From contig CAMYJL010000003.1 of assembly GCA_947258645.1 (NCBI GenBank), positions 1 to 37,452 on the forward strand: a DNA stretch of 37,452 nucleotides, given 5' to 3'. The notes below the pieces were generated by a model that saw nothing but the letters and a program-made list of their open reading frames with translations, did not search any database and had not been told where the DNA came from. The stretch comes from an uncultured Nitrospinota bacterium (GTDB lineage Bacteria; UBA8248). Numbering within the stretch: position 1 is the first letter of the stretch; the number at the start of each line of letters is the position of its first letter. This document shows, in pieces, positions 3,271-27,209 of this stretch. Made by a program: the position numbers and the translations under genes.

Positions 3271-5403
3271 TCAGCTGCGATCCGCGACACGTCCCTCGGT
3301 CACCAAAATCGCGGCCAGAAAGAGAAACAAAATGACCCCCAGATCCATCCAGCCTTCTATGGCGCCGACAGGCTCGGAATCATCCGCCCGGATCGAACGT
3401 ACGGTCAAGTCGATTCCCGGCAGCCGATCGCGCAGCTCGTTATCGCCCAAGGACGCGAGAATCATCTCAGAGGGCGGAATGTTCGCCGCGATCAGTTCCA
3501 ACCCGTCCGGCTTTCGAATTTCATAGAAACCCGCCCGGAAGGTTCCGTCGAATCTGGCGAGGACGGCTCCGCCCTCCGCTCCCTTCTGGCCCGAAGCGGG
3601 CGGGCGCAGACGATCATCGTCCGGCGAGCGCTCCAAACGCAACGTCTCCTCGTCCCCTGACGGCGAGCGAACCTGTACGACTTCTCCGATTTGGTAGGTC
3701 TTCGAGCGCACTTCGATGGGCTCGCCGGTTTGAATGCCCGCCACGGTGCCTTCCGCCCCACTCCCGAGGAAATCGACCAGTCCCCGCAGAAAAGGCACAA
3801 AAACGGGACGGACGGGAATGTCCGTCCATTCGCGATCGCAGGTGGCGCCCCATACGGCGACCCTTCCAGCCCCGGCACGGCCCACCACGAGTACCGCCCT
3901 TCCATCCGGAAGGGTCAAAAGAACCCTCCCGTTTCCCACGGACTTAAGAGGGGAAACCCGGCGCAAGCGTGTGCGGGAAAACAGACGGGAGGGGTTCCTC
4001 CCCATCCTGGAGAAAACGGGATGGTCCCACGAATCCACGGGGACCACCGCCTCTTGCGGGGGAGTCATTCGGTAAGGCGCATCCGGAACGGCCGGCAGCC
4101 AACCCGCTCCCGGAACGGTTCGGGCGGCCAGCGACCCGCTCGCCCAGAGGAGCCCTCCCCCCCGCTCAACGAAACGCCGCAGCAGGCCGGCCGCATCCAC
4201 CGGCCATTCGCCCACATTGCAGGCGATCACCAGATCGTACCTGTCCCAGTCCACGCTGCCCATCTCATAGCCCGCCGCCACCTCGACGTGGACCGGGGAG
4301 TTCCCGCCCGGGGGCGCTGCGCGCAGCGCGTTGGAAATGTAAAAAGACTCACTTTCGATCAAGCCCCGCCGCGGATCGCCGTCGATGACGAGCACCCGGT
4401 TCTTCCGGCCGATTTCCGCCGAGAAGTAATAAAGATTGGTCGGAATCAATTTATCCGGACTCGCCTCAATCCGCCCGCGGAAGATTCCTCCCTCCGGCGC
4501 GAGCACCCGGAAGCTGACCTCTTTTTCCTCCCCGTCTTTCAGGTTCAGCTCCGCCTCATCCATCTTTTTCTCTTCCAGATAGAGCGAAACACGAACCTGC
4601 TCCCGCTCTCTCTCGCCCTGGTTAGCGATACGGGCCACGACGACAAAAGGGGTGTTCGCCCGCGGAGGCCAGGGGCGAAGCCGCACGTCCCGCACAGCGA
4701 TATCCTGCGTCCCCGATTCAGGCGCCACGCGCACGAACTGGATACGGGTATGGGGAAGAAGGCGCCGCAACCCTCTGACTCGAAGCTCCTCCCAGTCACT
4801 CCGGGCCATGTCGCTCAACACGATAATGCTGCGCCGATCCACCTCGGCCGCCGTTCCCGACATGGCCTCCTGGATGGTCCGGAAAGGCCGGCCGGCCGCA
4901 TCCGACTGGCGGATGGAGGCGAGCCGGGAAAGCGCGGCTCTTTTTCCAAGAACAGGCGGCCGTCCCGACTCTTTGGCCACCGTCGCCCATAGACTGACCC
5001 TGTCCTGAGGAGATAGCCGCTGGATGAGCCGCTCGGCCGCGCGCTTGGCCAGGTCAAACCGGGTTCCATGCCCGGTCCGATAGGCCATGCTCGCCGAGTT
5101 GTCGACGATGAGGGTGAGAAGAACGGGCGACCAGCTGCTCCCGACGGCCCACCCCTGATTGGAGAGCAGCGGCCGCGCCGCCAGGATCGCGACGAGAGAG
5201 ACCGCGGAAATCCGGAGCGCAAGGAGAATCCAGTTCTTCAGCTGGCTCCGCCTCGCAATTCGCCTTTGGGTCCGGAGGAGAAATTCAAAGGTCGGGAGGC
5301 GCACGATCTGGATTCGACGTCTCCGCAAAAAATGGATCAGAATAGGCAGGAGGAAAAGAGATAACCCCCAGAGCATGTAGCTATGAAAAAACTGAAGCCC
5401 CAT
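3271..5403 (-). CDS. BatA-like membrane protein with VWA domain
   Basis: A 710-residue membrane protein and the last gene of the MoxR operon. The N-terminus has the paired helices of the BatA N-terminal domain (about 9-26 and 57-77) separated by a basic loop LRRRRIQIVRLPTFEFL. A von Willebrand factor A domain follows (about 93-250) with an intact MIDAS start DNSAS at 101-105. Next comes a beta-rich section, then a class I glutamine-amidotransferase-like fold (RVLVIDGDPRRGLIES, later ERGGGLLWASGSL), and a final membrane helix LGVILFLFLAAILV near the C-terminus. I chose the ATG at 5403 because it begins the canonical BatA helix and sits just after the DUF58 stop with AAGGA upstream. The VWA domain probably faces the periplasm and works with the MoxR ATPase; the client is unknown. 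Confidence 0.9.
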   Translation of the reverse strand: MGLQFFHSYMLWGLSLFLLPILIHFLRRRRIQIVRLPTFEFLLRTQRRIARRSQLKNWILLALRISAVSLVAILAARPLLSNQGWAVGSSWSPVLLTLIVDNSASMAYRTGHGTRFDLAKRAAERLIQRLSPQDRVSLWATVAKESGRPPVLGKRAALSRLASIRQSDAAGRPFRTIQEAMSGTAAEVDRRSIIVLSDMARSDWEELRVRGLRRLLPHTRIQFVRVAPESGTQDIAVRDVRLRPWPPRANTPFVVVARIANQGEREREQVRVSLYLEEKKMDEAELNLKDGEEKEVSFRVLAPEGGIFRGRIEASPDKLIPTNLYYFSAEIGRKNRVLVIDGDPRRGLIESESFYISNALRAAPPGGNSPVHVEVAAGYEMGSVDWDRYDLVIACNVGEWPVDAAGLLRRFVERGGGLLWASGSLAARTVPGAGWLPAVPDAPYRMTPPQEAVVPVDSWDHPVFSRMGRNPSRLFSRTRLRRVSPLKSVGNGRVLLTLPDGRAVLVVGRAGAGRVAVWGATCDREWTDIPVRPVFVPFLRGLVDFLGSGAEGTVAGIQTGEPIEVRSKTYQIGEVVQVRSPSGDEETLRLERSPDDDRLRPPASGQKGAEGGAVLARFDGTFRAGFYEIRKPDGLELIAANIPPSEMILASLGDNELRDRLPGIDLTVRSIRADDSEPVGAIEGWMDLGVILFLFLAAILVTEGRVADRS

Positions 5404-5408
5404 TGTCC

Positions 5409-6335
5409 TTACATCCTCAGTTTCGATCGCCACGCCAGGAACCGAACAAGCGCGCGGTCCAAAGGTTCCGCCGTGGAAAGGAGCACGTAATGTATCCCCT
5501 CTCTGCGGCAATGATCCCGGGTCGTATCCAGAAACTCCTGGAGAATCTGGAGATATGGGTCCCGGACCACCTCACATTCCACCGTCATGTTCCGGTCCGT
5601 CTCCACATCCTCGACCCGCGCCAATCCCTCATATGGAAAGCCCAACTCCTCGGCGTCGAGAATATGGAACACAACGACGTCGTTCCCCTTGAGGCGAATC
5701 AACCGCAGCGCGCGCCTGACGGATTCGGGATCTTCGAGTAAATCCGAGAAAATGGCGACCATCCCCCGGCGTCGCAACCCTTCCGCCAATTGGATAAGCG
5801 AACGGGCCAGGCCGGTGCCGCCGCCAGGGCGCTCGGCTTCAAGGGTAGAGAGAAGGGCTGTCATGTGCCGCCGAACGGCCTTGGCCGGGATGAAAGGATC
5901 GTCCGACTCCCGGGAAAGAACCAGGCCGACGGCATCCGACTGCCGCAGGAGGAGATGGCCGAGAGAAGCGGCAAGCGTCGCAGCATACTCCCATTTCGTC
6001 ATGGGTCCATCCCCGAAATCCATCGAGCCGCTGGCATCGACGAGGAGATGCGCCCTGAGGTTGGTTTCATCTTCATATTGTTTGATGAGATACCGATCGA
6101 ACTTCCCGTAGGCCTTCCAGTCAATGTGCCGGAATTCATCGCCGGGCGTGTAGGGGCGGTGTTCCTCGAACTCGACGCTGAATCCGCGCGCCCGGCTCCG
6201 GTGCACACCGCTCATCAGCCCTTCGACCACATGCCGCGCGCGCAACTCCAAGTTTGAAATGCGTGCGACTACGCTGGGGTCGAAAAAGCGGCCCGTTTCC
6301 TCGGATTGATTCTTTGACCGCCCCGAGATGTTCAA
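5409..6335 (-). CDS. DUF58-domain (VWA-like) protein
   Basis: A 308-residue cytoplasmic DUF58 protein, the usual partner encoded next to MoxR ATPases. The diagnostic motif is complete: [20 protein letters not shown] at about residues 57-76, followed by the VWA-type metal site LLVDASGSM at 98-105. Later segments ([20 protein letters not shown] and [20 protein letters not shown]) fit the VWA fold. Its start codon overlaps the stop of the MoxR gene (ATGA, 6332-6335), and the BatA-like start follows its stop within six bases, so translation is likely coupled. By analogy with MoxR-DUF58-VWA systems it should bind the ATPase and help insert metals or assemble a client complex. Confidence 0.95.
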
Positions 6336-7384
6336 GCGGCCTCCGATGCCTCGGCCGGAGGCGTTACCGTCTCGAGGAGCTTATCGACGAGAGCCACCGA
6401 ATCAAATCCTTCGGCCTGGCCCCGGAAATTAATGAGAATCCTGTGACGGAGAACCGGCCTGGCCAGTTCACGGACATCCTGAATGGACGCCGCATACCGC
6501 CCGTGCAGCAGGGCGCGGGCCCTGGCGCCGAGAATGAGATATTGGCTCGCCCGGGGCCCCGCGCCCCATTCCACGAAATCTCGGACGAATTCGGGGGCGC
6601 TATCATCCGTCGGCCGCGAGGCGCGTGCCAAGGACACCGCATAGTCCACCACATAGGGCGCGGCCGGAACCCGGCGAACCAGATCCTGATAGGCCATGAT
6701 TTGCCTTCCGTCGAGCACTTTTTCCAGCTTCGGAATGTAGTCTGACGTCGTCTGCGTCACAATATCGGCTTCTTCGGCAAGGCTGGGATAATCCACGCCA
6801 ATCTCAAACATGAAGCGATCCAGCTGCGCCTCGGGAAGCGGGTATGTCCCTTCCTGTTCGACCGGGTTTTGGGTCGCCATCACGAAAAATGGCGGCTCAA
6901 GGGAATGGGTCTGCCCGCCCGCAGTCACCCTCATCTCCTGCATGGCCTGGAGGAGTGCGGCCTGTGTTTTCGGCGGCGTGCGGTTAATCTCATCGGCCAA
7001 AAGAATCTGGGAAAAAACCGGCCCTCGGATGAAGCGGAAAATTCGCCGTCCTTCGACCGTCTCGTCGAGAATGTCCGTACCCGTAATGTCGGACGGCATC
7101 AAATCCGGCGTAAACTGGATTCGATTGAAGTCCAACTGGAGCACCTCGGCCAAGGTCCGGATCAAAAGCGTTTTGGCCAATCCCGGCACGCCCACCAGAA
7201 GGCAATGTCCCCTCGACATGAGCGAAATCAACACAAGGTCGAGAACCAATTGCTGACCCACGATCACCTTTCGAATTTCTTGAAGCGTTTCCTCCCGTTT
7301 TTTCCCTATCTCCCGGGCCACCTCAATGTCGGCTTGATTCATCTCCCGGTTTTCGCCATTGGCATCGTCTCGATTTTCGTTCAT
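6332..7384 (-). CDS. MoxR-family AAA+ ATPase
   Basis: A 350-residue AAA+ ATPase of the MoxR family. Walker A is GVPGLAKT (65-72) and Walker B is LLADEINR (128-135). The MoxR-specific surroundings are also present: [18 protein letters not shown] at about 88-105, [12 protein letters not shown] after Walker B, sensor-1 region [20 protein letters not shown], and the arginine-rich C-terminal lid [12 protein letters not shown]. The first 15 residues are polar, and a second Met lies at residue 15, so the start could be slightly downstream. It lies nine bases after the metalloprotease gene and overlaps DUF58 by four bases. MoxR proteins use ATP to help assemble or activate VWA-domain client complexes. 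Confidence 0.97.
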
Positions 7385-7393
7385 ATGCCCACC

Positions 7394-9130
7394 TCAATTT
7401 CCTTGTAATTTTTGAACCCGCTCAAATTCGCGTTGGGCGTTTTTCGGCAAACCCAATTTTTTGTAGAGGACAACCAGGCGTTCGTGCGGCAAGGGGTCGA
7501 ACGGATTAATCTGAATGGCCTCTTCCCATGCCTTGCGGGCCAATTTCGCATTCCCGCTCATCTCATATGCGATGCCCCGATGCGTATACGTTGCTCCATA
7601 ATCCGGATCGATTTCGACAGCTTTTTGCAAATTCCGCAGGGCTTTTTTAGGGAGGCCCATGCGGAGTTCCACCCGCGCCAGTCGATTCAACAGAGTCGGC
7701 GAATAGGGCTCGTCGCGAAGAGCGCGTTTATATTCCACCCATGCCGCTTTCATTCGTCCCCGCATCCAGAGACGATCGGCCAGCCGCGTCCTCCGGCGCG
7801 CCACCGCGTTCTTCAGAATCGCCAAATCCGCTCCGCTTTCATCCACTGGGCCGGTGGCCTTCAACCTGAATTCACGGACAACCGCCCCCGGATGGAGGCG
7901 AAGATTTTGCCGCTTCAAATCCTCCTGCCAGATTTTTTCGAATTTCTCGAGATCCACCTTCAACAGCGCCTCAAGGGCAGGCGTCGCCGTTTGCGGAGGC
8001 CCCGTCGACTCAAGCTCAATCAGGCTTGGCCGGGCCATCATCGCCCGCACGTCACCGGCCTCCGCGGATTGGGATCCCGCAGGGGCTTTCGCCTCCGGAC
8101 TATCGAGAATCGCTTTGAACATCCTTGGCAGCGCGTCCTTACCGGCACGCCGGCGGATAAAATCAACCGCAGAGGCCGATTCCGCATAGGCCAACTGGAC
8201 GGCTTCGGCGGTCTTCAAGTAAATCAGGCTGGGCTCCATGCTCTTGAAAGGAATGAAGGCCTTCTGGTTCATCGCCCGCGCGAGAAGAGTCACCTCCGAC
8301 GGATTCAACGGAGGAAGCTTGAGCCGCCTCCATTTTTTCTCCATATGTTTAGCGATGCCTTCATGCAGCCAGATGGGAGCCTTATTCCGTGTCGCCAGAA
8401 CAATTAAATAGTGGACATATTCATGCGCAGCCGTATCCAACCAGCGATATCCCCGCTGCAAAACCCCCGGGGAGATAATCATCACCTTGTTGAACTTGGT
8501 TAGACCGACAACCCCTTTTTCGATATCCCGCCGCGTCAGGGTTGAGGCCTTGTGAAACCGCTCGGTATCGGAAAAGATTTCCAATCGCACGCGCTTTTCG
8601 GGTCTCACACCCAATACCTTGCCGAAAACTTCATAGGCGGCCTCCATGGCTTCCGCCAGATACGGAAGAAGAATCATATCGCCCTTCGGATCGTGCCAAA
8701 TATCGAAATGCTTCGTTTGAAATTTACGAAATCCCGCCAAAGCCGACTGCGACTGCTTCACATGGAGGCGGAGCTCAAGCCATTCGATGACCCCGGGATT
8801 TTCCTGGATCGACGTGCTCAGGTTCTTGATGTATTCCGCGTAATTTCCGCGCAGGTAGGCAATCGCTCCCTTGAGCGCATCCCACGCCGGAAAATCAGGT
8901 TTCTTTCGGCGAAGCTCCGACAATATCTCATCGGCCTTTTTTAAATCCCAGGCCCTCATCTCATCAACAACCCGCTGATACCCCTCCGGCCGCTTTGAGT
9001 CGGCGGGAAAAGGACCCGAAGTTGCGGCCGGCACGGCGCCCCCCTTTGTTGGAATGCTCAACAGGACGAACACCGCCGATGCCAAGACAAAAGCCAGGAG
9101 ACGTTTCTTGTGATTTCCGAGGTGCTTCAT
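7394..9130 (-). CDS. Exported gluzincin-like metalloprotease with TPR repeats
   Basis: A 578-residue protein with an N-terminal signal sequence or anchor (KKRLLAFVLASAVFVLLS, about 8-26). A zinc-metalloprotease core follows: HEYVH at 236-240 and downstream WLHEGIAKHME at 254-263, where Glu257 is placed as third zinc ligand in the MA (gluzincin) clan. An N-terminal TPR-like section precedes it and two to three clear TPRs end the protein (PYSPTLLNRLARVELRMGLP, then DPDYGATYTHRGIAYEMSG, about 465-570). Such proteins are commonly annotated as peptidase MA-like domain proteins. Its start overlaps the DUF4175-like gene by four bases and MoxR follows after nine bases. It probably acts in the periplasm; the substrate is unknown. 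Confidence 0.85.
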   Translation of the reverse strand: MKHLGNHKKRLLAFVLASAVFVLLSIPTKGGAVPAATSGPFPADSKRPEGYQRVVDEMRAWDLKKADEILSELRRKKPDFPAWDALKGAIAYLRGNYAEYIKNLSTSIQENPGVIEWLELRLHVKQSQSALAGFRKFQTKHFDIWHDPKGDMILLPYLAEAMEAAYEVFGKVLGVRPEKRVRLEIFSDTERFHKASTLTRRDIEKGVVGLTKFNKVMIISPGVLQRGYRWLDTAAHEYVHYLIVLATRNKAPIWLHEGIAKHMEKKWRRLKLPPLNPSEVTLLARAMNQKAFIPFKSMEPSLIYLKTAEAVQLAYAESASAVDFIRRRAGKDALPRMFKAILDSPEAKAPAGSQSAEAGDVRAMMARPSLIELESTGPPQTATPALEALLKVDLEKFEKIWQEDLKRQNLRLHPGAVVREFRLKATGPVDESGADLAILKNAVARRRTRLADRLWMRGRMKAAWVEYKRALRDEPYSPTLLNRLARVELRMGLPKKALRNLQKAVEIDPDYGATYTHRGIAYEMSGNAKLARKAWEEAIQINPFDPLPHERLVVLYKKLGLPKNAQREFERVQKLQGN

Positions 9131-12100
9131 CGGGTCAGCCTCTCATAGTAGTTTTCAATTTCCTGCCGCAACGAATCCGGAAGTCCTTCCTTGAGCGCTT
9201 CCATGACTTCCTCGCGGAACTTCTCCGGCACCTTGTATTGCTCCCGATCGGGGATCTGAACCTCGCTGAAATCAACGCCCTGCTGGCCATCCTGTCCCTC
9301 GCGTCCGGGCCGTCTCGAAATATCCTGTCCAGGCGAAGTGGGGTTCCGCGCCCACCAGCCACGGCCGCGATTTGGCATACCCGAAAAACCACGCGGCGTT
9401 CCCATCCCGAGCCTTCCGCGTTGCGCCATCTGTTGCATGGACTGCTGCATTGCATTCTGCCCCTGCGCGAGCAATTCAAGCACGCGCTCTTCATGAGGAA
9501 TCGCACTCGAAGCGCTGGCCTCTCTCAGGGAATTTTCGGCCTTCTTCATCGCCCCTTTCGCCTCACTGAGGCGGCTCAGAACACTCGGATCGATAAACGG
9601 ATACAACTGCATGAGGCGCCGGAGGCGCTCTTCAATTCCGGCCAGCCGCCCCTCGAGGGCATGCTGTCTTTTTCGGAGCGTCCTGAGCGTATCGCGCTCC
9701 TTCGGGGAAGACCGCTTCTCCGCTTTTTGGAGAAAACCGTCCAGCCACTTCCGCCCACGCTTCCACCGGGCGTTTTGTTCCTTCTTGTCCTTGTCCTCGA
9801 GGCAAGGCTCTCTCTGAACCGCGCGTTCGATCTGTCCCAGGCGCCGATAGACCTCGCCCCACTCGCCCTTTTCCATGAACATTTCAATCTCGCCCAGAAT
9901 GGTGCGGTGTTCGAGCCGGGCCTGTTCCAGTTGCGCTTTCTTTTTTTCCGCCTGTTCCCCTTCAGTCTGATCTTCTGAAAACGGGTCACAATCGGCCTTT
10001 TGAATTTGATCGACCAGGGAACGCTCCTCCCGAATGATTTTTTTATACCGGGAGTCGAGCGATTTGAGCCCCTTCGGCCATCCCTTCTTCAATCGCTGCA
10101 CGGCGCTGTCGAAAACATCCGCCGTTTCATCCAAGATCGACTGTTGCTCCTTGAGAATGGCCGCGAGTTCGCTCTGGCGCCTTTGCATCGGCCTTCCGCC
10201 CCGCTGGGCCTGCATCTGTCGGCGCTGCAGACCTCTCATGGCGTTTCGCATTCGCTGAATCTGACTCATCAGCCGCCGGAGCGAATCGAGGGCTCCCCGG
10301 ATATTGCCGCGGGCCATTTGCTGGCGGATCCGATCAAACGCCTGCATCATGTCCCGCATCGGCAAGTTCCGCATCCCGCGCTGATTCATGAACTCCGCCG
10401 GCATGCGCTGGGCCAGGCCGGCAAGCTGCTGCATGAGCTTTCTCAGCTCTTGCTGCAACCGCGCGAGTTCTTTTTCGACCCGCCGTTTGCCCGCTTCATC
10501 GACTTCACCCGACCTGCGCATCTCCTCGAGGGCGCGGGCGAGGGATTCCTGGCGCCGCATCATCGCGTCCGCCATCCGACCGGCCCGATCCATCCGAACA
10601 TTCCGCAGGATGTCCTCTCCCATGGAAGCCAGGCGCTCAATGGCCTCTGTCGTCTCCTCCTGGCGCGCCAGGCGCTCATCCTCGCGTGCCTTCCTTTGCT
10701 TTTTGGTCAGGCGGGCCCGCCCTTTTTCGGCCTCTTGCGGGCGGAGATGGCGGTTCAGCAAATCCTTCAGGCGGTCGGCAAGCGAATTCAAGTCCATGTT
10801 CGCCAGGGTCTCCCGCGGGTTATTGGGACGAAGCATGGACTTCGCGCCCATCACTTTATGTAAAATCTGCGCAGTCTTCTCGCGAAGGGAGTCTCTGGCC
10901 GCTTCCTTTTGGGCTCGCTCCCGGGCCTCCCGGCCCTTTTGGCGTCCCTTTTCCTTGCGCCCCCCTTTCGAAAGTTCAGGAGGAACCGCCTCGTTTTCGA
11001 GATAGTCGCCGAGCAAATCGAGGAGCTTCGATGAAATCTCGTTGAGTTCCTTGTCCAGCGACGCAATGACAGCCTCGCGGTTCCGGATGCGAATCTTATA
11101 AAAAGGGCTGGTCCCCCATTTGGGGCCGCTGACCGTATCGGTATCCTCCGCGATAACGCGGTAGTTGAGGGATTCGCCCGGCCGGAGCCCCAGGGCCCTC
11201 ACATCGATGACGTATACGCCCTGCGCGCTTTTTTCCGACTTCTCCCCGCTCCAGAGCCGGATCCGCCGCGGCGGCTTTTTCCCGACCTGTACCTCGATGT
11301 GCACGATTCGCACCCCGAAATCATCTGCAGCGCGATAGCGCATGTGGACGAGGTCGCCCGCCTCCACAACCAGATCCTTGGCCGGATCTGTGATTTTCAC
11401 TTCAGGGGGTGAATCCGGAATGATGTCGATGCGGTAGCGGGAAGGCGCCAGATTCACGAATCCATCAAAATCCTTGAGACGAACCGAATAAGAACCGGGG
11501 CTCCCCACCAGGAGCAGCCCCTCGAAAAATTCGTTTTTCCCGGCCTTGAGCGGAATCTTCCATCCGTCTGCCAGGGCGATGAGCGCTTCTCTCACCGGCT
11601 TGTTCGGTTTCGTGCGCACCAGAACCGACGAGCCCAAATACGCCCGGATGTTGCCCCCGTCCTCGCCCCGCTCGGGCTGAAGACCGGTGTACTCGGGCGG
11701 AAAGTTGACGACCTCCACCATTTCCGCGCGTGGAGGGGCCACCACCTTCAATTCGACCGGAGCGGAAACAAACCGCCCCGACCGGGCCGTTACCCGCGTA
11801 TCGCTTTTTCCCCCGCTCCAGGTAACCCGGAAGCGATTCTCACCGGCGGCTTCCATGGGAAGGCGAGAAACCATCACTCGACCGCCCTCCTGCCGGAGAG
11901 CCAAAAACTCAAGGTCCACCCCATCGGGATTCCTCCCTTCGGTACGGACCTCGAATGAGACGGAAGAGCCCGGAAGAATCCGCTTGGCGGACGCCGAGAG
12001 GTATAAATGCGTGATGCGCGAAGGCATGAGGTCGACGGCGTTCGCCAGCAGGTACCCGGCCCGGGGATACATCCCCGGCCAGAGCAGACCCATCAGGACG

Positions 12101-12597
12101 GCCGTGGCGCCCAACGCCGCCACCAGCCGCCCCAGCCGGCGGGGCGCCTCATCCGAAACAAAGGATTTGGCTTCCAGACTTTCCACCTGGGCGGCGGTTT
12201 CGATGACCAGGGCATCGATGAGCTCCGGCGAGGTGGGATCGTCCGCCCTCAAATCCGCTTTCATCGGGAACAACTGCAGCGAGCTGATCAGGTTGTTTCC
12301 GAAATCTGGGTGTTCGGACTCGATCTCGAGGGCCACCCGCTCCCGCGCCGGGGGGCGCTTGATGATCCAGAAGGCCCGGGCAGCGACTCCGATGAAAAGA
12401 ACCAGCGACACCGCCAGGTAAACAACCGCGCTGTAGCCGAAAAGCGGCTGAGAGACCACCGCGGCAGGAGCGAGCAGAAACACCGACAACGCACCCAGGA
12501 CGACGATAACCCTGGCTTCGCGGCGACGTACCTTCTGCCTGCCCTCAATGACGGCGTCCAGAAACCCCAAAACTCTTTGAAACGATTTCTCTGGCAT
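9127..12597 (-). CDS. Large DUF4175-like membrane protein with long coiled coil
   Basis: A 1156-residue protein, the largest in the window. Two hydrophobic helices lie near residues 28-48 and 55-80, and a third near 153-175. A beta-rich, Ig-like region follows up to about residue 520, including PDSPPEVKITDPAKDLVVEA and a strand-rich FGVRIVHIEVQVG. The remainder is a very charged, Arg/Gln/Met-rich coiled-coil region (for example RRQMQAQRGGRPMQRRQSEL) ending in a YKVPEKFREEVMEALKEGLP helix. This layout matches DUF4175 proteins, which often sit in MoxR/DUF58/VWA clusters. GAGGCGGG lies upstream of the ATG. A gap of 164 bases separates it from the VWA gene upstream, the only sizeable gap in the operon; I found no convincing promoter there. 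Its stop overlaps the metalloprotease start. Confidence 0.8.
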   Translation of the reverse strand: MPEKSFQRVLGFLDAVIEGRQKVRRREARVIVVLGALSVFLLAPAAVVSQPLFGYSAVVYLAVSLVLFIGVAARAFWIIKRPPARERVALEIESEHPDFGNNLISSLQLFPMKADLRADDPTSPELIDALVIETAAQVESLEAKSFVSDEAPRRLGRLVAALGATAVLMGLLWPGMYPRAGYLLANAVDLMPSRITHLYLSASAKRILPGSSVSFEVRTEGRNPDGVDLEFLALRQEGGRVMVSRLPMEAAGENRFRVTWSGGKSDTRVTARSGRFVSAPVELKVVAPPRAEMVEVVNFPPEYTGLQPERGEDGGNIRAYLGSSVLVRTKPNKPVREALIALADGWKIPLKAGKNEFFEGLLLVGSPGSYSVRLKDFDGFVNLAPSRYRIDIIPDSPPEVKITDPAKDLVVEAGDLVHMRYRAADDFGVRIVHIEVQVGKKPPRRIRLWSGEKSEKSAQGVYVIDVRALGLRPGESLNYRVIAEDTDTVSGPKWGTSPFYKIRIRNREAVIASLDKELNEISSKLLDLLGDYLENEAVPPELSKGGRKEKGRQKGREARERAQKEAARDSLREKTAQILHKVMGAKSMLRPNNPRETLANMDLNSLADRLKDLLNRHLRPQEAEKGRARLTKKQRKAREDERLARQEETTEAIERLASMGEDILRNVRMDRAGRMADAMMRRQESLARALEEMRRSGEVDEAGKRRVEKELARLQQELRKLMQQLAGLAQRMPAEFMNQRGMRNLPMRDMMQAFDRIRQQMARGNIRGALDSLRRLMSQIQRMRNAMRGLQRRQMQAQRGGRPMQRRQSELAAILKEQQSILDETADVFDSAVQRLKKGWPKGLKSLDSRYKKIIREERSLVDQIQKADCDPFSEDQTEGEQAEKKKAQLEQARLEHRTILGEIEMFMEKGEWGEVYRRLGQIERAVQREPCLEDKDKKEQNARWKRGRKWLDGFLQKAEKRSSPKERDTLRTLRKRQHALEGRLAGIEERLRRLMQLYPFIDPSVLSRLSEAKGAMKKAENSLREASASSAIPHEERVLELLAQGQNAMQQSMQQMAQRGRLGMGTPRGFSGMPNRGRGWWARNPTSPGQDISRRPGREGQDGQQGVDFSEVQIPDREQYKVPEKFREEVMEALKEGLPDSLRQEIENYYERLTR

Positions 12598-12761
12598 ATC
12601 CCGCCTCTATCTCGCGGTGTTCCAGCCGACGCCGGAGCCGCGCTTATCTCATTATCCTACTTTACGCGCATATTGCCTATGGGAAGATTTTCTCTCATTT
12701 TCGGATGAACGCTCACCCTTTCCCTTCTTCAATCGACAGGAGATATCCACTCGTCCCCGCT

Positions 12762-15095
12762 TCACGCGAGCCCCCAAAGACGCCTCAGCGTCCACTCCCC
12801 CGCGGGCAAGAGAATCAAGATGAACGCCACCCAGGGGATACTCCAAAGCCGGACATCCCGCACCTCAACGAGAACGGGCGGAACCTTTCCTTTCAACACC
12901 TCGAGGACGCGATCCCCGAAGACCCGCTTTTTGTCCTCCCCCTCACCGGCAGGAAGAAAAACCCCGCCCGTCTTTTTCGAAAGCACCCGAAGGCGCTCCC
13001 AATGCGGTCTCACGTCCGCCCATTCCGCGCCCCCCGCTTCTCCTCCGACGGCGACCGTTCGAATCGAGTGTCCCAGCGGCTTCTCCCCCATGAGGGCGAT
13101 GACTTCCGCGCGATAGCTCCCCTTCCCGCGGGGACGGAACCTGGCCTCGAATTCACCCGTCTCCGGGCGGTAAACCGCCGGCATCTGATGGAGGCCTCCG
13201 TAGGGATCGCGGAGAGACAACCGAACCCGGGCCCCCGCAGCGGGCTCGAACTTGACGTCGCGCACCTGCATCCGAATAACATAGGAACCGTCTTTGCCGG
13301 GCACCGCCTCGGGAAGAATCTGCACCTGGGAAGTCGCCGGGTCGCCCGACAGCCATCGAATCATCTGCGCAACCAGACGAAGATAAAGGCGATTGGTTTT
13401 CTCGTCGGCCACCATCCCGTAATTCCAGCGCCACATATCATCGGTCAGAATCGAAAGCACCCGTCCTTCCCCTATCCGGCGCACGGCAATCAGCGGGGCT
13501 CCGTTAAACTCTCCTTCGGCCTGGGACGAGAGGAGAACAGCCCCCTCTTCTCCCGCCACCGTCAGATTTCCTTGACGCAATGCCGGGAAACCCGACCAAA
13601 GCCGCTCGTTCGAACGGGGATCGGATGAAAGACGCATGATGGGATGGCGGCTTCCCGCGGTGGTGAGCTTCCCGGTCATGCGAACACGAGCGGAAAAATC
13701 ATCCTTTCGCAAAAGCCGGACCGGCAACACCCTTTCGAGCGGAGACAGAACATACCCCCCCGAGGAAAAGGAATTTTTTCCCCCTAAAATCAGAAATCCG
13801 CCTCCACCTCGGATATAATCGTTTACACGCTGCAAATAATAGTTGCTGAAATACTGGTTTGCCGCGAAGTTGTCGAAAATGACGATGTCAAAATTTTTCA
13901 ACTCTTCCAGAAAAAGCGTATCGACAGGGAAAGGAACGAGACTGAGCTGCCGGGTGGGCACTCCTGGGTCGTCTTCGGATGTGCGGAGAAAAACAAACGA
14001 CACCAGATCGATGGAAGGATCCCGCTTCAGAGCCATCCGAAGGAAACGGTAATTCCATGTGGGCGCACCGGAGATGGTGAGAATCCGAATTTTGTTCCGG
14101 CGGACCTCAAGCGGAATTTCAACCCGGTTGTTCGACTCCACCAACTCGCCCCGTTGAACCGGAGTTTCAACAGCCAAAACCTGGCTCCCCACATCACGGG
14201 GCGTGAACCGAAACCGGACTTTCTTGCCGGAAGAATCCCGACGGACATCCACCGTCTGCGTGCTGACAACACGACCGTCCCGCGTCAGGGCGATCGGGAG
14301 TTTTTTCCCCACGAAACCATGGACCAAAAGTGTGACCTCCAGCTGGACTTCCTTCCCTTCAAAGGCAAGCCGGGGGGCCCGGACATCGTGCAGGGAAATG
14401 TCCCGGAATCTTCGGGACGATCCGAATCCAAGCGTCAGGACGGGAGGCATCCGCCCCACATCCTCTGGAGGCCAGCTACTGCCCGCCGTATCTCCCCCAT
14501 CCGACAAAAGCAGAATGGCAGCCGGGCGATCCTGCTTATTCTCCCCAGGCTCCCCTGCGCCGCCGTCATTTCCGGCAACCCCAAGGCGAATGGCGCGGAG
14601 CGAATCGCTTCCCGGACCCGCCGCCTCCAGGTTCATCATGTCTTCCTGCCGAAGCGGGTTGCTCACCGTATCGAAACCCGCCACACGGACATCGTAACTT
14701 TCGGAAAGCCGCTGAAGTAACCCACCCCCTTCGGCGGAACCAGGGACTTCTACCGAATCACTCCGCTTCAACAAAATACCCATCGCAGATTCCAGGCGGG
14801 AGCGATTTTGGGACTCATCCTTGACGCTCATGCTTGCCGAGGTATCCACCAGGACGAGCACCCGGGGCGGCAACGCCCGGTTTTTTTCTTCCAAAATCGT
14901 GGGGCCCGACAGGAAAAAAAGGATCACGACATACAGCAGCGCACGAAGGGAGAGGAGGATGGCGGCGCGGCCTCCCGATACCCTCTCGCGGATAAAAGGG
15001 ATCCGCCGGCGCAGGCTGTCCGCGAAAACGACCGCCAGTAATATGATGAGCCACGCCGGGGCGCCGGCAGGCCAATGAATCGTATTCCAATCCAT
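12762..15095 (-). CDS. VWA-domain membrane protein with glutamine-amidotransferase-like domain
   Basis: A 777-residue membrane protein. Two helices start it (about 13-28 and 44-64), then a VWA domain with MIDAS VLVDTSASM (Asp84, Ser86, Ser88), then an immunoglobulin-like section, and then a class I glutamine-amidotransferase-like fold (IRILTISGAPTWNYRFLRMA, with YIRGGGGFLILGGKNSF about 110 residues later). A beta-sandwich region follows and a C-terminal helix (IPWVAFILILLPAG, about 752-765). The arrangement is like the BatA-type protein at the other end of the operon, so the two are probably distant paralogues facing the periplasm on the same complex. It starts four bases after the DUF4159 stop, indicating coupled translation. 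Confidence 0.88.
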   Translation of the reverse strand: MDWNTIHWPAGAPAWLIILLAVVFADSLRRRIPFIRERVSGGRAAILLSLRALLYVVILFFLSGPTILEEKNRALPPRVLVLVDTSASMSVKDESQNRSRLESAMGILLKRSDSVEVPGSAEGGGLLQRLSESYDVRVAGFDTVSNPLRQEDMMNLEAAGPGSDSLRAIRLGVAGNDGGAGEPGENKQDRPAAILLLSDGGDTAGSSWPPEDVGRMPPVLTLGFGSSRRFRDISLHDVRAPRLAFEGKEVQLEVTLLVHGFVGKKLPIALTRDGRVVSTQTVDVRRDSSGKKVRFRFTPRDVGSQVLAVETPVQRGELVESNNRVEIPLEVRRNKIRILTISGAPTWNYRFLRMALKRDPSIDLVSFVFLRTSEDDPGVPTRQLSLVPFPVDTLFLEELKNFDIVIFDNFAANQYFSNYYLQRVNDYIRGGGGFLILGGKNSFSSGGYVLSPLERVLPVRLLRKDDFSARVRMTGKLTTAGSRHPIMRLSSDPRSNERLWSGFPALRQGNLTVAGEEGAVLLSSQAEGEFNGAPLIAVRRIGEGRVLSILTDDMWRWNYGMVADEKTNRLYLRLVAQMIRWLSGDPATSQVQILPEAVPGKDGSYVIRMQVRDVKFEPAAGARVRLSLRDPYGGLHQMPAVYRPETGEFEARFRPRGKGSYRAEVIALMGEKPLGHSIRTVAVGGEAGGAEWADVRPHWERLRVLSKKTGGVFLPAGEGEDKKRVFGDRVLEVLKGKVPPVLVEVRDVRLWSIPWVAFILILLPAGEWTLRRLWGLA

Positions 15096-15099
15096 CGAT

Positions 15100-15924
15100 T
15101 TAACCTTGGTTCAGACGGCGTTGGATGATGGGATGATGAATCAGGTCTTGCTTGTAGTTTCCCGTCATGGCGTAAAGGGCGATGTTCACGGCAAGCTGGA
15201 AAGCGGCTTTTCGCTGCGGCTCTCCGCCAGGCCGGCACTCTTCGGCCCACCCGCCGTCCGGCCGCTTTGCCCAGGCGCCGCCCAGATCGTTCCGGCAGAA
15301 GACAACAGGCGTGAATTTTCCCAGTTGAACCCCTTCCAGGGCCTGGCTGATCGACTGCCTTCCTCCGATCGACCCTATCAAGTAATAGCTTCGAAACACC
15401 GCGTGTCCACTCGACAGAGGCTCGAGAGGCTCGCGGGGGAAAAGCCGCCGGATGAGTTCCCTCGCCGATCGACCGAATCCTTCGTTCAAAAAGCCGAGGC
15501 CATCGTCTACCAGGAGAAAACCCCCGTAGGTCAAATGACGCTGAAGGCGCTCGATGTCTTTATTGCTGGGTATCTCAAATTCATAGCGGCCCGAGAGGTA
15601 GAGAAAAGGATGGTCGAACAACGCCGGATCAGAGAGCGTGACAACCCGGGCATCGCCCGCGACGTCGATACTCGTGCGATTTCCCACTTCCTCGAGCATC
15701 GAAGAGAGGGCGGAGGGATATTCCTGCCAGCGCCCTCCCCTGTACCGGATGTGCCCGGGGACAAAACCGGGCGGAAATATTTCAGATTGAGACTCTTCGG
15801 AATCAGAAGGGGTTTCCGGCCCACTCTGGCCGAACGCCGCCCACGGAAAGGCGAACGCACCCGCCGCGAGACCCGCCGCGCCTTGCAGGACGTTTCGCCT
15901 GCTCCAATACCGATCAGGGGACAT
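15100..15924 (-). CDS. DUF4159 protein with Tat-like signal peptide
   Basis: A 274-residue DUF4159 protein. The N-terminus carries a twin-arginine type signal: SRRNVLQGAAGLAAGAFAFP at residues 8-27, ending near AAFGQ, so export in folded form is likely. The mature part has DUF4159 hallmarks: IRYRGGRWQEYPSAL, the strand DHPFLYLSGRYEFEIPSN, GGFLLVDDGLGF and a C-terminal NIALYAMTGNYKQDL. The fold is related to class I glutamine amidotransferases and the family is a regular member of MoxR/VWA clusters. It overlaps the preceding metallo-beta-lactamase-fold gene by 11 bases and ends four bases before the VWA gene. The molecular role is unknown. Confidence 0.88.
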   Translation of the reverse strand: MSPDRYWSRRNVLQGAAGLAAGAFAFPWAAFGQSGPETPSDSEESQSEIFPPGFVPGHIRYRGGRWQEYPSALSSMLEEVGNRTSIDVAGDARVVTLSDPALFDHPFLYLSGRYEFEIPSNKDIERLQRHLTYGGFLLVDDGLGFLNEGFGRSARELIRRLFPREPLEPLSSGHAVFRSYYLIGSIGGRQSISQALEGVQLGKFTPVVFCRNDLGGAWAKRPDGGWAEECRPGGEPQRKAAFQLAVNIALYAMTGNYKQDLIHHPIIQRRLNQG

Positions 15925-16795
15925 CTTCAGCCGGAGAAAGAACCATGTAGGTCGTGGGGGGCGGAAGCTGCCGCAGCGAGAATGACACCTCGGGCGACTT
16001 CGGCCGTTTGACCCGATCGATCCCCTCCGCCTTCAGGGCGGCGTAAAACTCGCCGGGAAGCTCGGGACCAAAATAATGCATCGGAATGACCACATTCGCG
16101 CCGATTCGCTTCACAATCTTGGCCGCTATCCGGTGGGGAACCGTGAAGCCCCCGTCGATCGGGATGAGCACGACGTGAATTTTCCCCAACGCCCGGAACT
16201 GGCTCTCGGAAGGCCCGAGCCTCGCGTTCCCGAAATGAGCGATGCAAACTCCGGCCGCCTGAAAGATAAATATCGTGTTCTCGACGAACGGCACATCCGT
16301 CCCCTCGGAAAATTGCGGGAACGCCATCAGCCGGAGGGAGCGAAACGTTTTTTCCAATGCACGGGGTTTGCCCTCGGGCGTCACGCCGAAATAAATGGGG
16401 GCTTTCTTCTCGTAGGGCGCGGTCTGGGAATGGGTCTCGTGAAAGTTGCTGACGGTGATGGCATCCGGCGTCGGGTTCACCACCGTAAAGTATGGATCCA
16501 TCAGGACCCTCGCCCCCTCGGGGCCAGTGATCAGAAAGCTCGAATGTCCCAGATAGCGGAGGCGCACGCTCTTTTGTGCCGCGGCGAGGCGCGCAGGAGG
16601 AAACTGAGAGCCACGGGGGGTCCACGAGACCGGGATAAAGCTTCCGTCGCGGCGAACAAGGCCGGGTTTGCATATGGCCTCAGCAAGAGACGCAAACAGG
16701 ACAACGGCACTCAGGAGCGACACGCCGAAAACGGCATATCTCGCCCCTGCGCGCGGCAAGTTCGGCCCTCTCCCGTGAAAATCACAGAAGGTCAT
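15914..16795 (-). CDS. Exported metallo-beta-lactamase-fold protein with altered metal motif
   Basis: A 293-residue protein with an N-terminal signal-like helix (about 20-41) followed by a metallo-beta-lactamase fold of the UlaG/UPF0173 type. Visible elements are RYLGHSSFLI (80-89), VLMDPYF (98-103), ITVSNFHETHSQ (113-124), VCIAHFGN (183-190), VLIPIDGGFTV (209-219) and VVIPMHYFG (235-243). The motif normally written S-H-x-H-x-D-H reads S-N-F-H-E-T-H, so the first His and the Asp of the active site are replaced, and the usual H-x-G-D-T is H-F-G-N-A. Metal binding and hydrolase activity may be changed or lost. It is the first gene of the MoxR operon and overlaps DUF4159 by 11 bases. The ribosome binding site is weak. 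Confidence 0.82.
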   Translation of the reverse strand: MTFCDFHGRGPNLPRAGARYAVFGVSLLSAVVLFASLAEAICKPGLVRRDGSFIPVSWTPRGSQFPPARLAAAQKSVRLRYLGHSSFLITGPEGARVLMDPYFTVVNPTPDAITVSNFHETHSQTAPYEKKAPIYFGVTPEGKPRALEKTFRSLRLMAFPQFSEGTDVPFVENTIFIFQAAGVCIAHFGNARLGPSESQFRALGKIHVVLIPIDGGFTVPHRIAAKIVKRIGANVVIPMHYFGPELPGEFYAALKAEGIDRVKRPKSPEVSFSLRQLPPPTTYMVLSPAEDVP

Positions 16796-23243: not shown

Positions 23244-23834
23244 TCAGGCAGGTGATACCTCGGCCCCCTCCCAATCCTGCCACTGGACCTGATCCGACAA
23301 CGCTTCCACCGGATTATGGAAGCCATCCTGCAAGCGGTTCCATGCGTTGAACAGACAGCAGAATAGCGTCAGCTCGACGATCTCCCGCTCGCTGAAAAAT
23401 TCCTTCATCGCTGCGAAAGCGGCATCGTCGCCCGGCGCTGTGTTTTCGGTGAGCGCCGCCGACCAGCGAATAACCGCGCTCTCGCGATCGTCGAACAACC
23501 CGCTCGACTCCCAGTCACCGGCGAGCGCCTCAAAATGCTCTTCCGACAAGCCCGAGGCTCGACCGAGCCCCTTGTTGTGCTCCGTTCATATGGTGCATTG
23601 GTTCATGACGCTCGGGGTGAGGATGGCCAGCTGCATGAGGCGCATCCGCTCCGGCTCGCCACGCCATTGACCACGCAGCGAGCGGGTGAGTTCGATGATG
23701 TGGCCGAGGGCATCGGGCGAGTGGGCCAGCGCCCGGTAAAAACTGGGGACTGTCCCCCAGGTCTTGCGGGAGCGCTCGAAATAAGGCTCGTGCGGGCCCT
23801 TGACGTCGTCGCCGACGGGTGTGATTCGTGCCAT
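23244..23834 (-). CDS. AhpD/CMD-family protein with in-frame TGA, predicted selenoprotein (CxxU)
   Basis: Read through one in-frame TGA at 23586-23588, this is a full-length 196-residue carboxymuconolactone decarboxylase/AhpD-family protein. The N-terminal half ends LAILTPSVMNQCTI, and the frame continues TEHNKGLGRASGLSEEHFEA to the end. With selenocysteine at residue 83 the motif reads C-T-I-U-T-E-H, so U takes the place of the second Cys of the AhpD CxxC. C-terminal EREIVELTLFCCLFNAWNRL is typical of the family. A stem-loop at 23546-23575, just 3' of the TGA in the mRNA, fits a bacterial SECIS. GGAGGAGA precedes the ATG at 23834. A nonsense mutation or sequencing error is the alternative, but it would have to hit this exact codon. 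Selenocysteine would suit a peroxidase-like thiol redox role. The gene is divergent from the PIG-L gene. Confidence 0.82.
23546..23575 (-). promoter_or_regulatory. Predicted bacterial SECIS element inside the AhpD/CMD gene
   Basis: In the mRNA, the TGA is followed after 21 bases by the apical loop GGUC. The upper stem is GGCUC/GAGCC (23565-23569 with 23556-23560) and a lower stem ACAAG/CUUGU (23571-23575 with 23546-23550) closes it, with an asymmetric internal loop between. A G in the first loop positions and a loop within about 16-37 bases of UGA are the known rules of bacterial SECIS, and the loop resembles the AGGUCU loop of E. coli fdhF. Confidence 0.7.
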
Positions 23835-23962
23835 GGGATTCTCTCCTCCGGTTAGAACATTCGCATGAAAAGATTTATTTATCTTAGCTTGGCGGACGGG
23901 CTTTGTCTTGTTATAAGACGCTCCTGTTGGACGCCGCCGTCCTCCCGCTCCAGGATACGAAA

Positions 23963-24670
23963 ATGGACCACCAAAGCATCCTGATCATCGCCGCCCACCC
24001 GGATGACATCGACTTCCGCTCGTCGGGCTCCGCCGCGCTCTGGACCCGTCAGGGCCGCCGGGTGGCGTACGTCGTCGCCACCAGCGGCGAGAAGGGCTTC
24101 AACGGAAACGGCAAACTCTCAATCGAAGAGCGCCAAGCCATCCGCGAGGGCGAGCAGCGCGCGGCGGCGGCGGCGGCCGGTGTCGAGCAGGTCCATTTTC
24201 TCAAGCACCCGGACGGCGAGTTGGCCAATACGCCCGAGCTTAGGCGTGATCTCGTGCGTGTCATGCGGCAAGTGAAGCCCGACCTCATCGTTTCGGGCGA
24301 CCCCTCCCTGGACGCCTACGACAGCTTCTACGGCTACCACAGCGACCACCGCGCTATCGCCCAGGCCACTTTCGACGCCCTTTACCCGGCGGTCGGGAAC
24401 GAGAACTTCTTCCCAGAGCTGCTCAAAGAGGGTCTTGAGCCTCACCGGCCCAAGGAGGCCTATTTTTCGGGCCGCGGGGCGACCCTGAACGTCTGGGTTG
24501 ATATCGCGGAGACCTTCGAGGCGAAGCTTCGGGCGCTTGCCTGCCACAAGAGCCAGATCGCCGACATCAAGGAAATTGAGCCGCGCCTCCGGGAGTGGTC
24601 CCGCGAGATGGGAAAAGAGAAGGGCCTTGCGTGCGCCGAATGCTACAGACGACTTGAGATTCCAGACTAG
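23963..24670 (+). CDS. PIG-L (LmbE-like) deacetylase family protein
   Basis: A 235-residue member of the PIG-L/LmbE family of zinc-dependent N-deacetylases that act on N-acetylglucosamine-type substrates, for example in bacillithiol, mycothiol or surface glycan pathways. The catalytic AHPDDIDF lies at residues 11-18, where the usual A-H-P-D-D-x-E has Asp instead of Glu, and the second metal motif is GYHSDHRAIA near 118-127. The middle holds VVATSGEKGFNG and a Leu-Arg-rich VRVMRQVKPDLIVSGDP. The ATG at 23963 has AGGA about nine bases upstream; the longer frame from 23903 has no similarity. It is divergent from the selenoprotein gene. Substrate not known. Confidence 0.88.
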   Translation: MDHQSILIIAAHPDDIDFRSSGSAALWTRQGRRVAYVVATSGEKGFNGNGKLSIEERQAIREGEQRAAAAAAGVEQVHFLKHPDGELANTPELRRDLVRVMRQVKPDLIVSGDPSLDAYDSFYGYHSDHRAIAQATFDALYPAVGNENFFPELLKEGLEPHRPKEAYFSGRGATLNVWVDIAETFEAKLRALACHKSQIADIKEIEPRLREWSREMGKEKGLACAECYRRLEIPD

Positions 24671-25364: not shown

Positions 25365-27209
25365 ATGTTTGGCTACCAAGGAAGAATTCTGCACGTTGAC
25401 CTCACCTCAAAAACCAGCCGCGTCGAGGAGTTCGACGAGGCCTTCGCCCGGAAATACCTCGGCGGCAACGGCTTCGCCGCCAAAATCGTCTGGGATTCCG
25501 TGGAACCCGGCGTCGACCCGCTCTCGCCCGAGAACGTGATTGTCTTCGCCGTCGGCCCGTATACCGACACGGCCATCCCCAGCGCGAGCCGGTGCTGCAT
25601 CGGCTCGAAAAGCCCGCTCACGGGCCTTTTCTTCGACAGCACCTTCGGCGGCCAGTGGCCCATCATGCTCAAGCGGACGGGCCACGACGCCATCGTTCTC
25701 CACGGCAAGGCGGACACTCTCACCTATCTTTCCATCACGGAATCGGGCGTGGTGTTTCGCGAAGCGGGCGATCTCAAGGGAAAGTGGATCAGCGAGACCT
25801 GCGACGCCATTTCTGACGGCGAGGGCGGCGCGGATGTCCTCGCCATCGGCCCTGCTGGAGAAAACATGGTCCGCTTCGCCAGCCCGGCGCACACTTGGCG
25901 CAAGAGCCGCGACGGCATCGCCGGGCGTGGCGGCATGGCAGCCGTCATGGGAAGCAAGAACATCAAGGCCATCGCCCTCAAGGGCAAGACCAAGACGGCC
26001 GTCCCCGATCCAACGGCGCTGCGCGCCTTCGTCAACGAGACCGCCGAAGGGGTCCGGAACGGCACCGCCGCGCTCCACAAATACGGCACGCCCATCCTCG
26101 TCAACATGATCAACAAGATGGGCGCGCTGGGGACGATGAATCTCCAGAAAGAGGTTTTCGACAACTGCGAGCCGATCAGCGGCGAGGTCATGCTGGAGAA
26201 CTACCTCGACAAGGACACGACCTGCCTCAAGTGCCCGGTTGCCTGTGGCAAGGATTACGAGATGAAAGGCGGCAAATGGGACGGGCTCAAGTGGAAGATG
26301 CCCGAGTACGAATCCATCTTCGCCCTCGGCACCATGCTTGGAATCGACGACCCCGGCGCCCTGCTGCGGGCCAATCAGCTCTGCGACGAGCTCGGGCTGG
26401 ACACGATCTCGGCGGGCGTCACCATGTCGCTCGCCTACGAATGCTACGAGCGGGGCCTCCTCACCCAAGAAGACACCAGGCGCGACCTCAAGTGGGGCGA
26501 TCCCGACCTCATGCTCGAGCTTCTCGAAGACATCGCCCACCGGCGTGGCTTCGGAGCCCGTCTGGCCGAAGGCGGCCAGCGCCTGGGAGAAGAGATCGGC
26601 AGCGATGCGCTCCAATTCCTCTACGCGGCCAGAGGGCTGGAGCTTCCAGCCCACAGCGCCCGCGCGCTCAAGGGAATGTCGATCGGCTACGCCACCGGCA
26701 CGCGGGGCGGAAGCCACCACGACACGCGGCCGACACTGCAGTACGCCGCCGACCACGACAACACGACGACCGAGGGCAAGCCCGCCTTTGCGGTTCAGAC
26801 CCAGAACTACACCGCCTTGGGCGATTCTCTCACCCAGTGCCGCTTTACATCGGAGCGCGGCTACGGCGCCATGATCAACGAGAATTTTGCGAAGATGCTC
26901 AATTTCGTAACCGGATGGGACACCACGGTGGAGGAGCTGGAGACCACGGGCGAGCGCATATGCAACCTCGAGCGCGCCTTCCAGGTGCGAGAGGGGGTGG
27001 ACCGCTCGAAGGACATGCTGCCCCACCGCGTCATGCACGAACCCATCCCGGACGGGCCCCACAAGGGAATGCACTGCCCGCCGGATGAGTTGGAAAAGAT
27101 GAAGGACGAGTATTATGGGCTCCGGGGGTGGAACGGCAATGGCATCCCCACGGAAGAGACGCTGAACCGTCTGGGTCTGAACGAGGTCGCCAGCGCGATT
27201 TTATCCTGA
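25365..27209 (+). CDS. Aldehyde:ferredoxin oxidoreductase (tungsten enzyme)
   Basis: A 614-residue tungstopterin aldehyde:ferredoxin oxidoreductase. The N-terminal domain opens GYQGRILHVDLTSK and continues YLGGNGFAAKIVWD, typical of AFOR family proteins. Cluster ligands are C287-x2-C290-x3-C294 (TCLKCPVACGKDY) plus Cys492 (SLTQCRFTSE), matching the 4Fe-4S coordination of the archaeal enzyme. MSIGYATGTRGGSHHDTRPT fits the pterin-binding part. The ATG at 25365 has GAGGG close upstream. It oxidises aldehydes to acids with ferredoxin, or the reverse, and needs tungsten or molybdenum and a bis-pterin cofactor made elsewhere. No partner ferredoxin gene is adjacent. Confidence 0.95.
   Translation: MFGYQGRILHVDLTSKTSRVEEFDEAFARKYLGGNGFAAKIVWDSVEPGVDPLSPENVIVFAVGPYTDTAIPSASRCCIGSKSPLTGLFFDSTFGGQWPIMLKRTGHDAIVLHGKADTLTYLSITESGVVFREAGDLKGKWISETCDAISDGEGGADVLAIGPAGENMVRFASPAHTWRKSRDGIAGRGGMAAVMGSKNIKAIALKGKTKTAVPDPTALRAFVNETAEGVRNGTAALHKYGTPILVNMINKMGALGTMNLQKEVFDNCEPISGEVMLENYLDKDTTCLKCPVACGKDYEMKGGKWDGLKWKMPEYESIFALGTMLGIDDPGALLRANQLCDELGLDTISAGVTMSLAYECYERGLLTQEDTRRDLKWGDPDLMLELLEDIAHRRGFGARLAEGGQRLGEEIGSDALQFLYAARGLELPAHSARALKGMSIGYATGTRGGSHHDTRPTLQYAADHDNTTTEGKPAFAVQTQNYTALGDSLTQCRFTSERGYGAMINENFAKMLNFVTGWDTTVEELETTGERICNLERAFQVREGVDRSKDMLPHRVMHEPIPDGPHKGMHCPPDELEKMKDEYYGLRGWNGNGIPTEETLNRLGLNEVASAILS

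Follow-up and report, generated by a model that had tools for sequence, protein, structure and literature searches.

We identified a minus-strand gene that would encode a 196-residue selenoprotein of the AhpD/CMD-like "peroxidase-related" superfamily, with an in-frame TGA at codon 83 read as selenocysteine (Sec), a reading to which we assign a probability of about 0.95. The gene lies in the window, by which we mean the whole stretch of DNA that was analysed (37,452 nucleotides of contig CAMYJL010000003.1, from an uncultured Nitrospinota bacterium). The reading is based on the TGA itself, its conservation among relatives, a hairpin located downstream of it, selA, selB and selC genes in the same assembly, and purifying selection upstream and downstream of the TGA alike; Sec insertion itself, like the redox chemistry and the substrate, is what we infer. 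Knowledge of AhpD-like CxxU selenoproteins goes back to 2005, and the window gene adds to this known kind. Less expected were the ten confirmed Sec paralogues in this genome, the many found per genome across the lineage, and a C-x-x-U-x-x-H-N signature.

Gene structure and reading frame

The coding sequence occupies positions 23244 to 23834 of the minus strand, running from an ATG start codon at 23834 to a TGA terminator at 23246-23244, and comprises 196 sense codons, the 83rd of which would specify Sec. The initial annotation gave the correct coordinates and codons and left the strand unstated; a plus-strand reading of 23244-23834 was rejected because it yields no sensible protein. A ribosome binding site, GGAGGAGAG (23841-23849, minus strand), lies six bases 5' of the ATG, and direct reading of the sequence bore out the earlier description of a 196-codon gene with a strong ribosome binding site and a single in-frame TGA. 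This internal TGA (23586-23588, minus strand) falls within the local peptide ...NQC80-T-I-U83-T-E-H86-N87..., in which Cys80 (codon at 23595-23597, minus strand) forms the first residue of a C-x-x-U motif and His86-Asn87 (codons at 23574-23579, minus strand) occupy positions +3 and +4 from Sec.

Conservation of the TGA and coding selection

Relatives were sought among the 18 genomes of the class to which this genome belongs; in this collection, the class coincides with the whole phylum and comprises one family and six genera. Across these 18 genomes, 100 relatives were recovered at E ≤ 1e-20, all of which (100/100) carried one in-frame TGA, with one TAG additionally present in three of them. 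In a family alignment of 50 distinct members, the column of codon 83 was TGA in 47 and Cys in three, the latter being CxxC paralogues (L064, L074 and L075) with Cys at the exact Sec column. These paralogues are the kind of Cys homologue that the initial annotation had suggested looking for, and their presence favours the selenoprotein reading.

An orthologue set of 11 genes from 11 genomes, the window gene included, had TGA at codon 83 without exception (11/11). The other ten orthologues (from G004, G005, G007-G009, G011, G012, G014, G016 and G017) shared 59-79% identity, and two of the set are found in public records, namely, JAVEPB010000080.1 (bacterium isolate ODZ_NOB7a) and JAPYQX010000232.1 (Nitrospinota bacterium isolate PW3.concoct.202). 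Comparison with four orthologues (L028-L031) gave dN/dS values of 0.07-0.10 upstream of the TGA and 0.11-0.20 downstream of it, values that are rough, with synonymous sites near saturation. Coding selection is strict on either side of the TGA. The conserved TGA in orthologues and the low dN/dS on both of its sides agree with the earlier view that this is not a decayed gene.

In G102, from another phylum, the relative combines Sec with a +4 His (CEYUTRAH), and selA is present. Two more genomes had no TGA: G153, with no selA match above the cut-off, and G192, although selA is present there. Viral contigs, when scanned, yielded no relative.

A predicted SECIS hairpin downstream of the TGA

A bacterial SECIS hairpin is predicted at positions 23554-23571 (minus strand), inside the coding sequence, on the basis of its fold, conservation, covariation and a covariance model. 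The mRNA directly 3' of the TGA reads ACGGAGCACAACAA-GGGGCUC-GGUC-GAGCCUC; the hairpin begins 14 nt downstream of the TGA, and its 7-bp stem (GGGGCUC/GAGCCUC) carries a 4-nt GGUC loop positioned 21 nt after the UGA. In the published bSECIS model, the apical loop has 3-9 nt with a G in the first two positions, and the upper stem has 4-16 bp (PMC13188914), a description that this stem and loop, just downstream of the UGA, fit. The minimum-energy fold (-13.8 kcal/mol) includes the hairpin but is only modestly better than shuffled sequences (z = -1.5), and the case for a SECIS element is one of conservation and covariation, not of single-sequence folding. An Rfam scan of the whole window returned no match at the gathering score.

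Across the 47 family members, the position of the loop 21 nt after the UGA was constant. Standard pairs occupied 85% of cells; shuffling lowered this to 71%, and sliding the pairing partner gave no more than 56%. The covariation score was 0.457 against 0.235, and none of 500 shuffles attained the observed score. Among 45 distinct sequences, 27 close the loop with C-G and 16 with U-A. On its left, this pair uses the third, silent position of a Leu codon (CTC/CTT), and on its right a base that decides between Arg and Gln, so that a silent Leu change tracks an Arg/Gln change. At least three switches of this pair are forced by well-supported branches, in a tree that was built with those columns included. 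The Gly codon in the loop was GGT in 41 of the 45 sequences, a codon that accounts for 12.5% of those for Gly in the rest of these genes. Within the genome, the covariance model of the hairpin matched only the ten family genes; having been built from family members, it shows their count and is not an independent discovery of them.

Selenocysteine machinery and the meaning of the TGA

The assembly, which comprises 509 contigs and is ~92% complete, encodes a selC tRNA-Sec with a UCA anticodon (C9:30590-30682, 74.1 bits), as well as selA (579 bits) and selB (388 bits), which are separated by ~1 kb on C57. SelB and tRNA-Sec would decode the UGA at codon 83, directed by the downstream GGUC-loop hairpin, a step for which the sequence support is strong. 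The proposal that the genome should carry Sec machinery was therefore borne out for selA, selB and selC but not for selD, which was not found in the ~92% complete assembly, either by profile search or with a relative's protein as the query. With the assembly at ~92% completeness, the absence of selD would most simply reflect a missing stretch.

Among the 18 lineage genomes, selD was above the cut-off in 14, each with one TGA, and selA was likewise above the cut-off in 14; G003, a 96% complete genome, was also without a selD match above the cut-off. The SelD of relatives (L077-L086) is interrupted by one TGA, i.e., it is a Sec-containing SelD. The two best sub-cut-off selD candidates in the window's own genome were rejected as SelD, the one on C55 looking like a HypE/AIR-synthase-type protein and the one on C36 like ThiL, labels that are tentative.

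Two other explanations of the internal TGA were weighed, and both are extremely improbable. A pseudogene, or a TGC or TGT turned into TGA by a sequencing or assembly error, would accord with a single internal stop in an assembly as fragmented as this one (509 contigs), in which selD was not found, but the hairpin covaries, coding selection stays strict beyond the stop, and the recurrence of TGA at this codon in all 11 orthologues, each from a different genome, as well as in 47 of the 50 family members, leads us to reject this explanation in practice, with a read error, which the initial annotation had wanted checked, excluded by the independent genomes. If TGA instead encoded an ordinary amino acid genome-wide, as in Trp or Gly codes, the many open frames in the lineage that cross one TGA would be accounted for, but 9 of 13 checked window genes terminate in TGA, as the initial annotation had argued on seeing other genes end in this codon. 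Furthermore, the internal TGA of aligned family members sits at the redox position that is Cys in relatives, the genome has a tRNA-Sec with a UCA anticodon, and the known Sec protein SelD of relatives also has one internal TGA; genome-wide recoding was rejected on these grounds.

Protein family, fold and redox motif

A Pfam scan of the window protein gave no family match at E ≤ 1, CMD (PF02627) included, and a CMD match at E ≤ 0.01 was present in 28 of the 35 family members scanned. The nearest NCBIfam models were TIGR01926 and NF053654, of which TIGR01926 aligned to residues 8-170 of the window protein with 51.3 bits, below its curated cut-off of 81.8. This alignment spans both sides of the TGA, but the Pfam result and the sub-cut-off score show that the earlier claim of full CMD similarity for both halves of the gene was overstated.

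The AlphaFold2 model of the window protein (mean pLDDT 91) predicts an all-helical AhpD-like fold, its best PDB matches being AhpD-like proteins. Sequence and fold searches of the PDB recovered Atu0492 (2gmy), PA0269 (2ijc, 2o4d and 7xw1), Mlr4105 (3c1l) and Deinococcus radiodurans AhpD (6k40), and more weakly the debrominase Bmp8. The four AhpD-like proteins are Cys-containing and share the fold of the model (Foldseek E about 1e-6 to 1e-4, TM-scores of 0.59-0.88), with the redox motif aligned and with 18-30% identity to the window protein.

The AhpD relay, as in Mycobacterium tuberculosis AhpD, consists of a CxxC pair with a His at +4 after the second Cys. Alignment places this relay His at +4 in Atu0492 and PA0269, both of which have CxxCxxMH, whereas the window protein has CxxUxxHN, with Asn where AhpD relatives have His. 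The C-x-x-U-x-x-H-N signature extended to the Sec members as a whole (Asn at +4 in 47/47 and His at +3 in 46/47), and the three CxxC paralogues have Met-His at the +3/+4 positions. A catalytic AhpD in the strict sense combines CxxC with a relay His at +4, and the window protein has CxxU, His at +3 and Asn at +4; because the +4 relay His is Asn, an AhpD-like peroxidase mechanism is not assured.

The first residue of the motif is Cys in 45 of the 47 Sec members and Ser in two, L051 (G017) and L053 (G016), which have the motif SDYU. Since these two members keep Sec with Ser in place of the first Cys, the alignment suggests that the selenol, and not the first Cys, would be the essential nucleophile. 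Two paralogues in G015 that adjoin Sec members (L066:1747-2244 and L068:1083-1568) have the motif S-A-Y-C, with Ser replacing the first Cys and Cys standing where the Sec would be; it is possible that such neighbours, one with Sec and one without, form pairs.

Gene neighbourhood and probable chemistry

The divergent neighbour of the window gene is a PIG-L/LmbE-type deacetylase (23903-24670, plus strand, with a program-assigned ORF start; Pfam PIG-L, 93 bits), the best NCBIfam match of which is the bacillithiol protein BshB1 (93 bits against a cut-off of 182.5). A second conserved neighbour, an aldehyde ferredoxin oxidoreductase (25365-27209, plus strand; Pfam AFOR_N and AFOR_C), adjoins the orthologues in G004, G007, G008, G014 and G017. 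Both neighbours occur beside orthologues in genus g1 and two further genera (g3 and g6), and neither was seen beside those in g4 and g5 within the stretches examined. Because the BshB1 match is well below its cut-off, a possible link to a low-molecular-weight thiol via the deacetylase is only a lead.

Judging from the fold and motif, the U83 selenolate would most likely attack a peroxide or disulfide-like substrate, and Cys80 would resolve the resulting intermediate. We consider it probable, with some reserve, that the protein is an oxidoreductase that uses its selenol on peroxides or disulfides. Family names make peroxide the default guess for the substrate, and disulfide or dehalogenation chemistry also has room because the relay His has been lost.

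A selenoprotein without peroxide-reducing chemistry, acting as a low-molecular-weight-thiol oxidoreductase or as a reductive dehalogenase like Bmp8, is the alternative with an appreciable, if lesser, chance of being correct. The Asn found at the +4 His position in every Sec member, the additional match of the fold to Bmp8, and the conserved deacetylase with its sub-cut-off resemblance to BshB1 are consistent with such chemistry, and the presence of ten Sec paralogues per genome may point to different substrates. However, the closest matches by structure carry antioxidant or AhpD labels, and identity to Bmp8 is only about 18%.

Sec paralogues and relation to known selenoproteins

Alignment and the covariance model together confirmed ten Sec paralogues in the genome (G000), distributed over contigs C3 (which holds the window), C64, C85, C90, C141, C157, C177 and C186, with two on C267; one CxxC family member is located on C34. 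Similar sets of Sec paralogues were observed in the other 17 lineage genomes, with thirteen members listed with one TGA in G015. It is conceivable, though on balance doubtful, that one AhpD-like ancestor gained Sec together with CxxUxxHN and radiated to at least ten selenoenzymes per genome, with substrates beyond peroxides and with this fold as the mainstay of selenium use.

The initial annotation was right that CMD/AhpD selenoproteins had already been reported. Twenty-seven AhpD-like CxxU selenoprotein sequences came from the Sargasso Sea (PMC1088965), the GOS data yielded 299 sequences of AhpD-like 1 along with a described AhpD-like 2 (PMC2398784), and a 2026 review tabulates an "AhpD-like protein, TIGR01926, CxxU" (PMC13188914). 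The window protein belongs to the same family as the Sargasso and GOS proteins, with Sec at the second CxxC position and an alignment to TIGR01926, and differs from them in its CxxUxxHN signature, the published forms being compared by description only.

Two further NCBIfam families are named as (seleno)proteins. NF053654 (GroundWater_YciW, "YciW-related (seleno)protein") matched all 35 family members scanned, with a best E value of 1.2e-48, but the window protein, at 47.3 bits against a curated cut-off of 310, is a relative and not a member. NF041238 (AhpD_rel_CFYUT (seleno)protein), a curated Sec-containing AhpD relative, matched 20 of the 35 members at E ≤ 0.001, and the window protein scored 14 bits against its cut-off of 175. 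Within the literature that the search covered, we found no report of a set of about ten Sec AhpD paralogues per genome, of the HN signature, of Sec use in Nitrospinota or Tectomicrobia, or of an expansion of AhpD selenoproteins.

Annotation that halts at the TGA would fragment the window gene and its paralogues, hiding much of the thiol/selenol redox chemistry of the lineage. Annotation of further members could draw on the CxxUxxHN signature together with the covarying GGUC hairpin. The paralogue set of these 18 genomes, almost wholly Sec-based, also offers a natural test of the retention of Sec over Cys within one fold.

Elsewhere in the window, positions 3271-16795 (minus strand) hold a run of genes encoding BatA-like, DUF58, MoxR-type ATPase, TPR/peptidase MA, DUF4175 and DUF4159 proteins, which resembles a MoxR/BatA-type cluster.
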